From NCBI GenBank assembly GCA_022750375.1, contig JAKIVU010000011.1, positions 1-33,550 on the forward strand: 33,550 bases of DNA, in the 5' to 3' direction. Source of the stretch: Thermoplasmata archaeon. GTDB taxonomy: Archaea > Thermoplasmatota > Thermoplasmata > Lutacidiplasmatales > UBA184. Of this stretch, positions 7,343 to 12,513 are shown piece by piece. The notes under the pieces are model-generated. The model was not told the DNA's origin. It did no database searches and was given only the letters and a program-made list of their open reading frames with translations. The translations under genes were made by a program, and so were the position numbers. The number at the start of each line of letters is the position of its first letter. Position 1 is the first letter of the stretch.

Positions 7343-10300
7343 TCACGGAGGAGGAGACGTCGGCGGCGGCAAAGAGGGGGGAGGTGCGGCGGTGGAAGTC
7401 CCTCCCTGTCGCCGGCGACGGACGACCAGGAACACCAGGATCAGCACCGCGACCACGATGACGACGAGGAGGATCCAGAGCCAGCTCGTCGAGCTCGCGG
7501 GCGGGGAGCTCGTCGACGTCGAACCCTGCACGATGAGCTTCGCGTTCGCCTCGGCGGAGTGGTGGTCGGTGTCCGTCACCGTGACCGTCACCGTCGAATT
7601 GCCCGAGGCGGTCGGGGTGCACTCGAGGGTCGGGGAGTCGGCCGTCGCGCAGCCCGTGGGGAGGTTCGTGTAGACGTATTCGAAGGGGGGCGCTCCGCCC
7701 CCGGTCACGGTCGTGAAGTTACTGCTCTCTCCGAGAGTGATGGTCGCGGGCGTCGCCGTGAGGGTGGCGGTGAGCGCCCCCGTGCCGGCGATGAAGGTGA
7801 TGTTCTGGTCGATCGGCCCCCCGAACACGGTGAGGTCCCCCGAGCTCGGCACCGCGGCAAAGCCCGTGACCGGGCTGACGGTGAATGAGTACGTCCCGTT
7901 TTGCTCGGAGAAGACGATCGATGAGGTCGTCGAGCTCTGCGGACTGCCCCCGACGCTGACGTTCCACATCGTCCCGACCACCAGCCCGGTCTCCTCGAAG
8001 GTGACGGAGTACGACACCCGGACCGCGGTGAAGTGGAGGTTCACGGTCTTCCCGGAACCGTTCACGATCACGGAGCCGCCCGTCATGTTCGCCACATACC
8101 CCACCACCGCCCCGATGGTGTAGGAGTACGTGTAGTTCGAGAGCTGGTAGCCGACCACGCTCGTCGTGGACCCGTTCGTCGTTCCGTTGAGCGTCACGCT
8201 CCACGCCTTACCCGAGGGAAGTCCCGTCTCCACGAATTGGACCGGGTACGTCGGGACCGGGCGACCGATGGTGGAGATGATCCCCGCGTCGGCGGTCGAA
8301 ACGTAGGTGTCGTGGTTGACCGGGTCGTAGGTGATCCCGCTGGAGTACTCGTTTTCCCCCAGGTAGATCATGCCAAGGACGGAGTAGTTCGACGCCCCGA
8401 TCCCGGAGACGATCGACTCGGAGTTTCCCGCGTCGTAGATGACGTTGGTGGCGGAGTCAAAGGCGAGCCGACCGTAGGCGTAGGGGTCCGAGACATTCGC
8501 GACCGACTTGTTGGTCGCGTCGCTCACGACCGTGAAATTGCCCGAGTTCGCGACCCAGATCGTGTCGTTGGTCGAGTCGAAGGCGAGGGAAAGGGGCGCG
8601 AGCCCGGCCGGCGAGGAGCCCACGGTCTTCTCGGAGGTGCCGTTGATGATCGTGAGGTTGTCCCCCGTGCCGTCCGCCACGTAGACCCCCTCGTTGTGCG
8701 GGTCGTAGAGGATCGCGTTCAGGCTGGCGCCCGCAGTAATGGGGATCGTGGTCAGGAACGAATGGGTCGCTCCGTTGAAGACCCACACGTCGCCCGCCGA
8801 CGAATCCGTCACGTAAATGTTGCCGTTGGCGGAGTCGAAGGCGATCGCGTTCGGGAACGGACCCGGGGTCAGGTTCGCGACCGAGTGAAGGGCCGGGTTG
8901 AGGACCGTCAGGTTGTCCGAGCCCCGGTTCAAGACCCACAGGTCTCCCGTGATCGAGTCGTACACCGACGCCCAGGCGTACCCCGTCGGCGCCGTGCCGG
9001 TCGAGAGGCCGGTCGCGGGGTTCAAAAGGTAGAGGTCCAACCCGGCCGGGTCGGCGGCGACCAGCTCGCCATTCCCCGGGTCGAACGTCACGCCCACCGG
9101 GTACACCTCGACGGGAACCGAGGCGATCGGGAGATTCGTCCCGTCCGCGACGACCGTGACGTTCGCCTGGTGCCCGCTGATCGACGGGGGTCCAGCGTAC
9201 GTGCCCTCGCTCGCCGCGAAGACGTTCCCGCTCTCCGAATCGACGGCGACAGAGTAGACGAGGCCGTCGTTCGTCCAAATGCTCGCCACGATGTGGTTCG
9301 TTGCGGGGTCGATCACCGTAAGGTTCGGCGTCTCGGAGTTCGCAACGTAGACGTCGTGGTCCACCGGGTCGAAGGCGATCCCTTCGGGGTCCTCCCCGGT
9401 CGAGATGTTGGCTACGATCCGGCTGTTCTCGGATTGATTGAACACCGAGACGTTGCCCTCGGCTCCGTTCTCGACGAACAGTTCGTCCTGCCTCGGCGCG
9501 TACGCGAGACCGTCCGAGTCGAAGGGGACGTATGGGTGGGCGGATAGGCTGAGCGTCGTCGCGTTGATGACGCTGAGATTGTCGGTCGTTTGGCTCCCCA
9601 CGTCCACGAGATTGTCGTCGGTGTCGAGGGCGACTACCTGCGGGGTGCTCGCGAGGATCCCCGTGGGGAGGTTCTTCACGACCGCGCCGGTGAGCGTATC
9701 GATGACAGAGACGTTCCCCGAGCCCGTGTTCGCGACGAACAGTTCGTTGGAAGCCGCATCGAAGACGAGGGGGCCGGGGTGGCTTCCCACGGGGATGCCG
9801 ACCACCACGGCGTTCGTCGCCGTGTTGATGATCGTGACGTTGTCCCCGCTCCAATCGGAGAGGTAGATGTACCCGTTGTCGGGGTCGAACACTGCGCTTG
9901 TGGGGGAGAGGCTGGAACCGATGCTGGCGGTGACCGTATTCGTCACGGCGTCGATGACGGAGACGTTCCCCGCGTTGTAATTCATCGAATAGACGTCGCC
10001 GTTGACCGGGTCCGCGAGGAGTGTGGGGGCGAGACTGTACGGGTTCGCCGAGGCGGGGAGGGCGATCGCCGCCACGACGACATTGGTCGTCGCATCGATC
10101 ACCGCGACCGCCGTGCCCTCGGCTCCACGAACGTAGAGGTCGCCGTTCACACTGTCGTAGAGGACGCTCGCGGGCAGGTCCTGCACGGGCGGAATGTGGT
10201 CTCCCGGCAGCACCTGGTTAGCGACCAGGCCCGTCGTCGAGATCACCGCACCGAGACTCGAGATGCTCGGATGACCGGCGCCGGCCGGTGTGCCGCCCGG

Positions 10301-10504
10301 GAGGACGGGAGTCGAGCCACCGTTTGGGGGGAGACTCTCCCCCGAAGCGAGCGTAGCTGGGGGGAGAGAATGCGTCGTCGCGAGGGAGGCGGCGCTCGAC
10401 AGCACGACCGCCAACGCGACGACCACCGCGAGGAACCGAGCCGTGGCGCGTCGGACGTCCGCTCTGTTTCGAGACAATATTCGGTTGGGCGGTCGGCCAG
10501 TCAC
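7343..10504 (-). CDS. Secreted, membrane-anchored YVTN beta-propeller surface protein with proline-rich tail
   Basis: About 1053 residues. A charged N-terminus and a hydrophobic stretch (LAVVVALAVVL) form a signal peptide. Roughly residues 90-740 are repeats of the YVTN propeller type, with recurring units such as 'FDPxNGxIYVxxxxxxNVTVI' in variant form. Two 'ETGLP/ETGLV ... W.V' modules follow near 755 and 830, then one Ig/PKD-like module with LPTGC and LECTP near 905-990. A single helix at about 1007-1028 is followed by RRRRQ and a cytoplasmic tail ending in PPP blocks. Many N-x-S/T sequons suggest glycosylation outside the cell. GTG at 10504 is chosen for a TATA-like patch 27-36 bases upstream; TTG at 10477 is an alternative that keeps the signal peptide. 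The ligand or role is unknown. Confidence 0.85.
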   Translation of the reverse strand: MTGRPPNRILSRNRADVRRATARFLAVVVALAVVLSSAASLATTHSLPPATLASGESLPPNGGSTPVLPGGTPAGAGHPSISSLGAVISTTGLVANQVLPGDHIPPVQDLPASVLYDSVNGDLYVRGAEGTAVAVIDATTNVVVAAIALPASANPYSLAPTLLADPVNGDVYSMNYNAGNVSVIDAVTNTVTASIGSSLSPTSAVFDPDNGYIYLSDWSGDNVTIINTATNAVVVGIPVGSHPGPLVFDAASNELFVANTGSGNVSVIDTLTGAVVKNLPTGILASTPQVVALDTDDNLVDVGSQTTDNLSVINATTLSLSAHPYVPFDSDGLAYAPRQDELFVENGAEGNVSVFNQSENSRIVANISTGEDPEGIAFDPVDHDVYVANSETPNLTVIDPATNHIVASIWTNDGLVYSVAVDSESGNVFAASEGTYAGPPSISGHQANVTVVADGTNLPIASVPVEVYPVGVTFDPGNGELVAADPAGLDLYLLNPATGLSTGTAPTGYAWASVYDSITGDLWVLNRGSDNLTVLNPALHSVANLTPGPFPNAIAFDSANGNIYVTDSSAGDVWVFNGATHSFLTTIPITAGASLNAILYDPHNEGVYVADGTGDNLTIINGTSEKTVGSSPAGLAPLSLAFDSTNDTIWVANSGNFTVVSDATNKSVANVSDPYAYGRLAFDSATNVIYDAGNSESIVSGIGASNYSVLGMIYLGENEYSSGITYDPVNHDTYVSTADAGIISTIGRPVPTYPVQFVETGLPSGKAWSVTLNGTTNGSTTSVVGYQLSNYTYSYTIGAVVGYVANMTGGSVIVNGSGKTVNLHFTAVRVSYSVTFEETGLVVGTMWNVSVGGSPQSSTTSSIVFSEQNGTYSFTVSPVTGFAAVPSSGDLTVFGGPIDQNITFIAGTGALTATLTATPATITLGESSNFTTVTGGGAPPFEYVYTNLPTGCATADSPTLECTPTASGNSTVTVTVTDTDHHSAEANAKLIVQGSTSTSSPPASSTSWLWILLVVIVVAVLILVFLVVRRRRQGGTSTAAPPPSLPPPTSPPP

Positions 10505-10530
10505 CCATCGCCCGGTATCGCGGGCACCGC

Positions 10531-10540
10531 AAAGTCGTTT
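10531..10540 (-). promoter_or_regulatory. Weak TATA-like box for the YVTN surface protein
   Basis: AAACGACTTT on the minus strand is 27-36 bases before GTG 10504. It is the only AT-rich patch in the 188-base gap between the two surface-protein genes, which otherwise shows nothing. Confidence 0.3.
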
Positions 10541-10692
10541 CGCCCGAGCCAGCGGGAAGCATCCACGCGAACCGCTGCCTTGAACAGCCCCCTCACCGGA
10601 TCCGCCCGAGAACGGGATCGGCTCCGCGTCGCCCGCGGGAGTGTGTGCCCGAGGCTCCGCCCTTCGAGCAGTCCAGTCGTGTCGCGGCGAGG

Positions 10693-12513
10693 TCACGGGG
10701 AAGGAGGCGGCGGCATCGGGACAGTAGGGGGAGGCGACGCCGGAATTGCCCCGGCAGCCTTTCGGCGTCTTCGCACGATGAAAACGATCAAGACCACGGC
10801 GGCCACCACTACCAGTGCGATCACGAGCCAGAGCCAGAGGCTGCCCGAGGTGCTGGCGGGCGAATTCGGGGACGTCACGGTCAGCGAGGTCGTGGCGTTC
10901 GCGAAATGTCCGGCTTGGTCGTGGACCTCGACACGCGGTGTGAACGCCCCGACCTCGGTCGGAGTGCACGTGAGCACGGCGAGGTCGGACGAGGCGCAAC
11001 CGGCGGGCAGACCCGTATAGAAGTACGTCAGGTTGGCGGGCAGAACTCCGCTCGTCTTCACCGTAAGCGTCGTCGACTCATTGACCACCACCGTCCCCGG
11101 ATCGGCCGTCAGGTTCGCGGTCAATGTGACCACGACGGCGGTGACGTCGAGCGTGGCGACGGCGGCGGCCTCCCGGTCGGCCGTGTCCGTGACATTGACT
11201 CCGACCACGTAGTCACCGACCGCGGTCGGGGTGCAGGAGATCGCGCTCCGATTCCCGGTCGCGCACCCGGGGGGGAGCGTCGAATACAAGTAGCTGTACG
11301 ACCCGGTCCCTCCCGACGCGGTGGTCGTGAGCGTCGCGCTTCCTCCGACCGGCACCGTACCGGGGTTCACTTGGAGCGACGCCGTCAGCGGCGTCACCAT
11401 CGACGTGAAATTGAACGCCCAGTTTCCCATGATCGGGCCGTTGCTGTTGACCTCGTAGAACAGGAAGGTGTAATCGTCGACCGGGTCGTAGAACATCTGT
11501 CCGTAGGGGTTGTTCGGATTCGGTGGGCTGTTGCTGACGTTGTACTGCAACCACGACCCTTCGGAGAACAGCCACGTGGAGTAGTAGTCGTCGGCGGCAG
11601 GGTACCCGCCGTAGAGCACGAGCTGCTCTTGCGCGGTATCGAACGCCATGCCCGCGGCGATCCGGGCATCGGGATGATTTCCCGGAGCGATCGGAGCCCA
11701 GTTGCCTCCCCGGAAGGTCCAGGTGTCGTTGAGGTAGTCGACGGCCCCCAAACCCCCGAACATGACCATCTCGTTGTCCCCGGAGTCGAACGTCATCTCC
11801 TGGGCATGGCGCCCGGAAGGCAGCGTGGTCGGGAACAGCTGGGTCCACTTCCCTCCCGCGAAGGACCACGTGTCGTTGCCGTACTGGGAGGTGTGGTTGA
11901 TGCCGCCGAAGAGCAGGACCGACAGGGTGGCTGCGTCGTAGGCCATGGACATCCAGAAGCCCTCGGGCGGCGCCGTTCCGGCGCTCGCGGTGATATTCGT
12001 CCAGACACCGGCGGACCACGTCCAGGTGTCGTTGAGATAGGCGCCGTTGGCACCGTCACCCCCGAACAGCACGACTTCGCTGTCCTCCGGGTCGTCCGCC
12101 AACCCGAAACCGAATCGTGGGGAGGGGGAAACGGTCGTGGTCCGGTTCGTCCACACGCCGCCTTTGTAACTCCAGGTGTCGTTGTAGTACTGGTAGTGGA
12201 ACGAGCTCGTGTTGAGGTACTCCCCTCCGAACAAGAGCCCGTACCCGTCGTTCGCATCGAACACCATGCTCGCGGAGATCCGGGGGGGCGGGCTGGCCGA
12301 ATCGGGAATGCTCAGGTTGGTCCAGTTCAGGTCGGTCGCCGAGTAGGACGGGGCAACGGAGGAGGGTCCGGTCGGACCGAGGGCCCCGGGAGGAGCCACT
12401 CCGGGAATCGCGTGGGTTCCCACGATCGATGCAGCGGTTCCAGTGAGCGTGCTGCCCAAACAGAGCAGCACCACGGCGACGACCACCACCCCCCGAAGGT
12501 TCCGCGACGTCAC
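10693..12513 (-). CDS. Secreted, membrane-anchored Kelch-type beta-propeller surface protein with proline-rich tail
   Basis: This 606-residue protein starts with a signal peptide (MTSRNLRG then a Val/Leu-rich core to about residue 30). Residues about 65-345 hold five or six Kelch/galactose-oxidase-type blades, each with a VLLFGG-like strand and an 'NDTW.W..G.W' turn. Two tandem Ig/PKD-like modules follow (about 372-458 and 459-545), each with LPxGC, a CTP turn and a V.V.V.D strand, so each can form one disulfide. A single helix (558-580) leads to RRRRK and a tail with PPP and PPPP blocks. The whole C-terminal plan matches the neighbouring YVTN protein. The start codon is GTG. N-x-S/T sequons are abundant. 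A role in adhesion or glycan binding is plausible for the fold but not shown. Confidence 0.87.
   Translation of the reverse strand: MTSRNLRGVVVVAVVLLCLGSTLTGTAASIVGTHAIPGVAPPGALGPTGPSSVAPSYSATDLNWTNLSIPDSASPPPRISASMVFDANDGYGLLFGGEYLNTSSFHYQYYNDTWSYKGGVWTNRTTTVSPSPRFGFGLADDPEDSEVVLFGGDGANGAYLNDTWTWSAGVWTNITASAGTAPPEGFWMSMAYDAATLSVLLFGGINHTSQYGNDTWSFAGGKWTQLFPTTLPSGRHAQEMTFDSGDNEMVMFGGLGAVDYLNDTWTFRGGNWAPIAPGNHPDARIAAGMAFDTAQEQLVLYGGYPAADDYYSTWLFSEGSWLQYNVSNSPPNPNNPYGQMFYDPVDDYTFLFYEVNSNGPIMGNWAFNFTSMVTPLTASLQVNPGTVPVGGSATLTTTASGGTGSYSYLYSTLPPGCATGNRSAISCTPTAVGDYVVGVNVTDTADREAAAVATLDVTAVVVTLTANLTADPGTVVVNESTTLTVKTSGVLPANLTYFYTGLPAGCASSDLAVLTCTPTEVGAFTPRVEVHDQAGHFANATTSLTVTSPNSPASTSGSLWLWLVIALVVVAAVVLIVFIVRRRRKAAGAIPASPPPTVPMPPPPSP

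Follow-up and report, generated by a model that had tools for sequence, protein, structure and literature searches.

A shared C-terminal anchor with a proline-rich, putatively cytoplasmic tail on two propeller surface proteins of a Thermoplasmata archaeon

Introduction

Two neighboring genes on contig JAKIVU010000011.1 of a Thermoplasmata archaeon (order Lutacidiplasmatales; assembly GCA_022750375.1) encode surface proteins with beta-propellers of different type, YVTN and Kelch, that end in the same way, and they raise the question of what a proline-rich tail on the presumed inner side of a membrane anchor might do. Accounts of archaeal surface anchoring usually name one of two forms, an end processed by archaeosortase or a bare helix that carries a few basic residues. 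The stretch analyzed here, termed the window, is the entire contig (C9; 33,550 bases) from a genome bin of 931 kb that is 69% complete. Lutacidiplasmatales is portrayed, in the accessible part of PMC9287336, as a soil order of high guanine plus cytosine (GC) content (~69%). Genomes, contigs, and loci of the comparison carry G, C, and L numbers below.

Two different propellers end in one anchor

The YVTN protein matches TIGR02276 in 8 stretches (3e-38; 129.5 bits against a cut-off of 27.85), and the Kelch protein matches PF24681 (7.6e-25; 87.9 bits against a gathering score of 50) and PF13418 (60.4 against 21.6). Over the last 143 residues the two proteins share 46% identity and the same order of parts: immunoglobulin (Ig)-like module(s) of the LPxGC...CTP type (a single one in YVTN, a pair in Kelch), a 21-residue W-L-W helix, RRRR, and a Pro-rich tail of 21 (YVTN) or 22 (Kelch) residues. 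The common anchor plan that a sequence-only reading of the window had proposed is thus borne out. An AlphaFold2 model of the Kelch C terminus, computed from an alignment of five rows, two of them window sequences and three from named relatives, predicts two Ig-like modules (predicted local distance difference test score, pLDDT, mostly >90), a helix at residues 184 to 211, and a tail with pLDDT of about 50 to 62. Foldseek with the Ig-like modules returned 473 PDB matches at E ≤ 0.001, with Ig-type adhesion proteins at the top; Pfam PKD matches these modules only under its cut-off. Adhesion modules such as SraP (4m03), titin Z1Z2, and CEACAM share a beta-sandwich with the juxtamembrane modules here, although identity is only 10 to 24% among the matches listed and TM-scores are moderate.

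In contiguous stretches of five genomes of the genus, chosen without regard to the tail and called unbiased below, 37 of 38 C-anchored proteins have more Arg and Lys over the 12 positions that follow the helix than ahead of it (mean 3.7 versus 0.2), and 33 of the 38 carry an N-terminal hydrophobic segment. This charge bias places the tail inside the cell, as the earlier reading had supposed, and the topology is inferred from it. The architecture of a surface protein with one C-terminal helix followed by arginines is shown at the level of sequence and predicted structure. RRRR itself is present in both window proteins but is no fixed motif, since relatives have RRRKK or RKKK in its place. At one locus (L149, G015:C215), an E-S-G-L-P-x-G domain follows the helix and RRRRR; such domains are otherwise extracellular, and this one is either an internal copy or an exception in topology.

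Proline-rich tails recur in orthologs and in unrelated surface proteins

A profile that includes the tail is biased towards Pro, and the analysis was therefore redone on loci selected by ectodomain and on contiguous stretches. Among close Kelch relatives selected by ectodomain only, all eight readable tails contain two consecutive prolines (PP) and six contain three (PPP), or 9/9 and 7/9 with the window protein; the G009 tail is cut by a contig end. YVTN relatives have PP in 13/13 and PPP in 10/13 (14/14 and 11/14 with the window protein). Orthologous tails thus keep proline blocks, even though beyond close pairs the tail sequences barely align and only the Pro-richness stays; the G064 tail is just three residues past the basic run. 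A family of small anchor proteins (L257–L277), unrelated to the Kelch and YVTN proteins, has PP in 21/21 tails, PPP in 18/21, and at least five consecutive prolines in 15/21, and it adjoins a tRNA-Phe gene in 10 of the 21 loci. Its tails are extreme polyproline with P, M, G, Q, and W.

The tail-containing profile matches 36 of 41 genomes, with a maximum of 72 matches in one, and the anchor plan recurs across the Thermoplasmata genus (78 genomes), so that the tail is found, as the earlier reading anticipated, on other proteins of the genome and its relatives. In the own genome, the profile matches four proteins, two of them the window pair, and purpose-written scripts, which made the gene and helix calls (Kyte–Doolittle, 19 residues), add more on contigs C13 and C16. 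Five other measured proteins of this genome have PP in 5/5 tails and PPP in 3/5; a further C-anchored candidate, C16:141164, whose helix score is low, lacks PP.

Other tail ends occur as well. More distant matches of the Kelch query form a second clade with conserved P-x-x-W-x-E ends (G010C15, G041C16, G066C137, G060, and L054 of G005), and a W-x-E end is also found in the YVTN protein of G081; W-x-E as a universal motif was rejected, since 14 of 106 tails have it and shuffled tails reach 15, and its conservation is confined to this one Kelch clade. The element of the clade (L056/L116, L237, L238, L236, L054) is acidic, P-x-x-W-x-[DE], and comes after a Pro stretch. In a set of 106 tails, from which the low-GC loci L154, L034, and L137 and tails of <8 or >110 residues were removed and in which tail-selected loci and a handful of wrongly called C-anchored proteins (e.g., peptidase-like) remain, three end in a zinc ribbon. 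Cytoplasmic tails in which a long linker leads to a terminal zinc ribbon (CxxC...CxxC) were seen at G018:C2 (about 52965–56315), L022 (G024), L032 (G017), and L034 (G026). Some tails of the low-GC genome G026 end in this way; the genes of G026, G027, and G025 come from an earlier caller, one that in G010 had missed genes in favor of antisense frames.

Proline exceeds compositional expectation

The 29 tails of at least 8 residues in the unbiased stretches contain 27.7% Pro, 14.5% Ala, and 8.3% Gly, compared with 10.7% Pro in the 25 residues outside the membrane, 11.6% in multi-pass C-terminal tails, and 8.7% in soluble C-terminal ends of the same stretches. Leaving out the window proteins gives 28% Pro in the tails versus 10% outside the membrane of the same proteins. 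When only low-hydrophobicity segments are compared, again without the window proteins, Pro is 28.4% in 23 tails versus 16.8% in 29 multi-pass and 13.4% in 178 soluble segments. A neutral prediction from GC content at third codon positions (GC3) yields 14.7% Pro, 15.8% Ala, 17.0% Gly, and 17.9% Arg; the tails, in a set without L154, L034, L137, and L169 that includes tail-selected loci, have 28.7% Pro (about twice neutral), 12.1% Ala, 10.1% Gly, and 4.9% Arg. As Pro lies above and Ala, Gly, and Arg lie below this expectation, the excess is specific to proline and does not extend to GC-rich codons generally. PPP is found in 12 of the 29 unbiased tails, against a mean of 11.4 after shuffling, which makes high Pro content, and not a PPP motif, the distinguishing trait. 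Of the PPP-ending tail described earlier, the Pro-richness on both proteins therefore stands, and PPP as a motif does not.

Selection on the tail

In the Kelch pair G020/G091, the tails differ at 11.0 of 28.3 synonymous sites and 1.0 of 58.7 nonsynonymous sites, plus one codon gap; the ectodomain has a proportion of changed nonsynonymous sites (pN) of 0.067 to 0.111, i.e., the tail is more constrained, and non-Pro residues are kept too (e.g., GAPPFNGPPV). The small-anchor pair G015/G008 differs at 13.0 of 29.8 synonymous and 5.0 of 84.2 nonsynonymous sites of the tail. Two further small-anchor pairs are G010/G066, with a tail pN of 0.135 versus 0.241 for the ectodomain and many gaps, and G017/G086, whose tail is weakly constrained (pN 0.264 versus 0.060). 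Nonsynonymous change is below synonymous change in the tail in all 12 distinct pairs (15 minus three repeats of one record, L218 = G091) and below that of the outer 25 residues in 8/12. Alignment of repetitive tails favors identity, and we therefore place weight only on nearly gapless pairs. In the best-resolved cases Pro content is held by selection while the exact order drifts, and a tail so kept probably has a job.

What the tail may do

A docking tail, a passive spacer, and a ribosome pause each account for part of the data; tentatively, and by a slight margin, we favor a disordered cytoplasmic docking tail, its proline content under selection, on permanently anchored surface proteins. In this reading, both are exported surface proteins that a single C-terminal stop-transfer helix, its arginines on the inner side, keeps in the membrane permanently; the polyproline-type tail would expose short motifs, or carry small domains, to cytosolic partners, the docking step being the conjectural one, and in other members this position is taken by a W-x-E acidic end or a zinc ribbon. 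Two observations tip us towards docking: in the best pairs, constraint reaches residues other than Pro, and sister tails carry conserved W-x-E ends or zinc ribbons. In EnvZ, polyproline in a prokaryotic membrane protein serves protein–protein contacts, with the difference that these motifs, in the portion of the source at hand (PMC6023141), belong to the receptor's HAMP domain and periplasmic domain and not to a terminal tail.

Several observations weigh against docking. The tail is missing or very short (<8 residues) in a quarter of the C-anchored proteins of the genus (9/38). Twelve tails of three low-GC relatives within the order (GC 0.35–0.47) have 4.9% Pro, 16.5% Lys, and 15.1% Glu, with PP in one and PPP in none. 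The W-acid motif is only weakly enriched overall, in 14 of the 106 tails versus 7.7 after shuffling (shuffle maximum 15), and tail pN is below ectodomain pN in just 3 of the 12 distinct codon pairs. No partner emerged either: SH3_1 is over its cut-off in 0/31 genomes, and a tandem SH3-like protein occurs in only 3 of 78. The Lys/Glu-rich tails of low-GC relatives, together with the missing or short ones in the genus, make the Pro-rich tail a lineage habit and not a universal signal.

Polyproline cytoplasmic tails of eukaryotic single-pass membrane proteins are read by SH3, WW, or profilin domains. The single-pass surface proteins here likewise hold polyproline on the presumed inner side, as in such receptors, but searches with SH3_1, SH3_2, and WW found no general polyproline reader (profilin, GYF, and EVH1 were not searched). 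Controls for SH3_2 and WW gave no signal, and SH3_2 missed one protein that scores over the cut-off elsewhere. The suggestion that the tail recruits a partner or acts as a sorting signal stays conjectural. The tandem SH3-like protein and the small anchor were rejected as a general reader–ligand pair, since a protein found in 3/78 genomes cannot be the general reader of a family found in 21/78. At L254 and L255 (G008:C175 and G015:C195), the tandem SH3-like gene has as neighbors a tRNA-Phe gene and one of the small anchors with a polyproline tail. A wider form of the docking idea, in which many surface proteins of unrelated kinds across the genus bear a polyproline address whose tail classes (polyproline, P-x-x-W-x-E, and zinc ribbon) are read from inside by a common partner, we regard as distinctly doubtful.

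The tail may instead be a passive spacer, in that RRRR and any soluble disordered tail would stop transfer and hold the protein, with Pro providing safe, unsticky disorder in a GC-rich genome. Its composition does follow lineage GC (28% Pro at GC 0.66–0.70; Lys/Glu-rich at 0.35–0.47), tail length is freely variable (0–107 residues), and PPP occurs just as composition predicts. We nevertheless consider a spacer somewhat doubtful, because Pro is more frequent than in segments of matching disorder from these genomes and than neutral GC predicts, and because amino-acid constraint is strong in two pairs (G020/G091 and G015/G008), extending in the former to conserved non-Pro residues.

It is unlikely that the tail serves as a ribosome pause, in which polyproline at its end would slow translation while the helix leaves the tunnel and the translocon inserts the anchor, with a putative aIF5A resolving the stall. 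Such a pause would account for composition being kept rather than sequence, and the first PPP of the Kelch and YVTN relatives lies 26 to 51 residues from the start of the helix window, with protein ends mostly at 39 to 56. In Escherichia coli, polyproline is likewise enriched just past membrane helices (site III, 49–59 residues from the helix start), which is read as an insertion delay in the part of PMC5811046 available; those are single motifs, whereas here many surface proteins with a single helix end in a whole Pro-rich tail, which mostly lies nearer to that helix. Most Kelch and YVTN PPP lie closer than site III, 26 of the 38 unbiased C-anchored proteins have no PPP, low-GC relatives have no such feature, and the zinc-ribbon and W-x-E ends are left unexplained. 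Functionless GC-driven drift coincides with the high-GC genomes and is improbable given twice the neutral Pro, less Ala, Gly, and Arg than predicted, and an excess of synonymous change in 12/12 pairs, though the alignment bias noted above applies to the last of these.

Finally, the helix and basic residues (RRRR) of both proteins are a trait of archaeosortase substrates, and ArtA substrates have a tripartite signal that includes them (PMC7157517, as far as the source is accessible). The Haloferax volcanii PGF-CTERM substrates likewise carry a C-terminal hydrophobic helix and basic residues on surface proteins, as the same portion of that source describes; here, by contrast, there is no PGF-type motif before the helices, where SPPASSTSWLW and SPASTSGSLWLW stand, a Pro-rich tail of 20 or more residues follows, and no archaeosortase was found in the genus. 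PF09721 (Exosortase_EpsH/archaeosortase) matches 0 of 19 genus genomes, including the incomplete own genome, versus 8 of 12 genomes from elsewhere in the order and class, and the M. jannaschii control responded; given incomplete genomes, the absence is probable rather than proven. That the region is a PGF-CTERM-like processing signal is thus very improbable despite the resemblance. The undetected enzyme and the missing motif favor a helix that is never cut, and by these sequence criteria the anchors look permanent.

Origin of the anchor

The anchor of the window Kelch protein finds its best matches in YVTN anchors of other genomes and not in those of its own Kelch orthologs. In an anchor tree of the 19 of 29 rows that retain LPxGC, window-type Kelch and YVTN rows are mixed; four label changes are needed, and well-supported branches force one. 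Support is mostly low, with 86 to 93% at the relevant forks. Module shuffling, as proposed from the two window proteins, is supported insofar as window-type Kelch anchors are nearer to YVTN anchors than to other Kelch anchors, with the reservation that these forks reach only 86 to 93%; module exchange between surface proteins is suggested, not proven, by these sequences, and the Kelch and YVTN anchors may have one origin. In the YVTN relative G008, three E-[TS]-G-L domains replace the Ig module and the tail is of the same kind, so that tail and Ig module are separable.

Gene layout and genomic setting

The two genes share the minus strand, with YVTN downstream of Kelch (Table 1). The YVTN frame, with its stop at 7343, is open to 10999, where it overlaps the Kelch gene; the start of the protein is likely near 10426 to 10501. 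Domains of the FVETGLPSGxxWxVTLNG type are very frequent in genomes of this group. The other genes of the neighborhood are ordinary: a proteasome subunit, succinate dehydrogenase/fumarate reductase flavoprotein and iron–sulfur proteins, a TMEM175-like protein, the C-terminal part of GMP synthase, an alanyl-tRNA synthetase-type protein, and methylmalonyl-CoA mutase. The adjacency of the two propeller genes holds in the window but is not kept in relatives: no genome but the own one holds both (Kelch E ≤ 1e-80, YVTN E ≤ 1e-70). A conserved two-gene operon was rejected on this ground, and because weaker Kelch relatives in G010, G062, and G066 are on other contigs than the YVTN relatives there.

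Table 1. Features of the two surface-protein genes in the window
Feature	Position	Strand	Basis or remark
YVTN-propeller surface protein, about 1,050 aa	7343..10501	-	start uncertain, 10426-10501
YVTN protein, N-terminal hydrophobic signal-type segment	10373..10441	-	sequence; alignment with G010 relative
YVTN-type beta-propeller region, approximate limits	8165..10162	-	TIGR02276, 8 stretches
YVTN protein, two E-[TE]-G-L domains (FVETGLPSGxxWxVTLNG type)	7787..8248	-	sequence; without Pfam match
YVTN protein, Cys-paired Ig-like module	7529..7774	-	sequence comparison
YVTN protein, single membrane helix	7421..7483	-	
YVTN protein, RRRR	7409..7420	-	sequence
YVTN protein, proline-rich putative cytoplasmic tail, 21 aa, 43% Pro	7346..7408	-	
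Kelch-propeller surface protein, 606 aa	10693..12513	-	
Kelch propeller, approximate	11389..12336	-	Kelch model matches
Kelch protein, first Ig-like module	11143..11388	-	sequence and AlphaFold2
Kelch protein, second Ig-like module	10876..11124	-	sequence and AlphaFold2
Kelch protein, single membrane helix	10774..10836	-	sequence and AlphaFold2
Kelch protein, RRRR	10762..10773	-	sequence
Kelch protein, proline-rich putative cytoplasmic tail, 22 aa, about 48% Pro	10696..10761	-	AlphaFold2: predicted disordered

Significance

Literature searches, some queries of which returned nothing at all, gave no description of such archaeal Pro-rich anchor tails. In a lineage where no archaeosortase was found, surface proteins of many kinds carry a Pro-rich tail that is predicted to face inside. 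If no partner exists, this could be a clear case of polyproline timing membrane insertion; if one does, it would be an archaeal polyproline-reading system, and a reader common to the tail classes would couple surface display to the cytosol, as is so far known from eukaryotic receptors.

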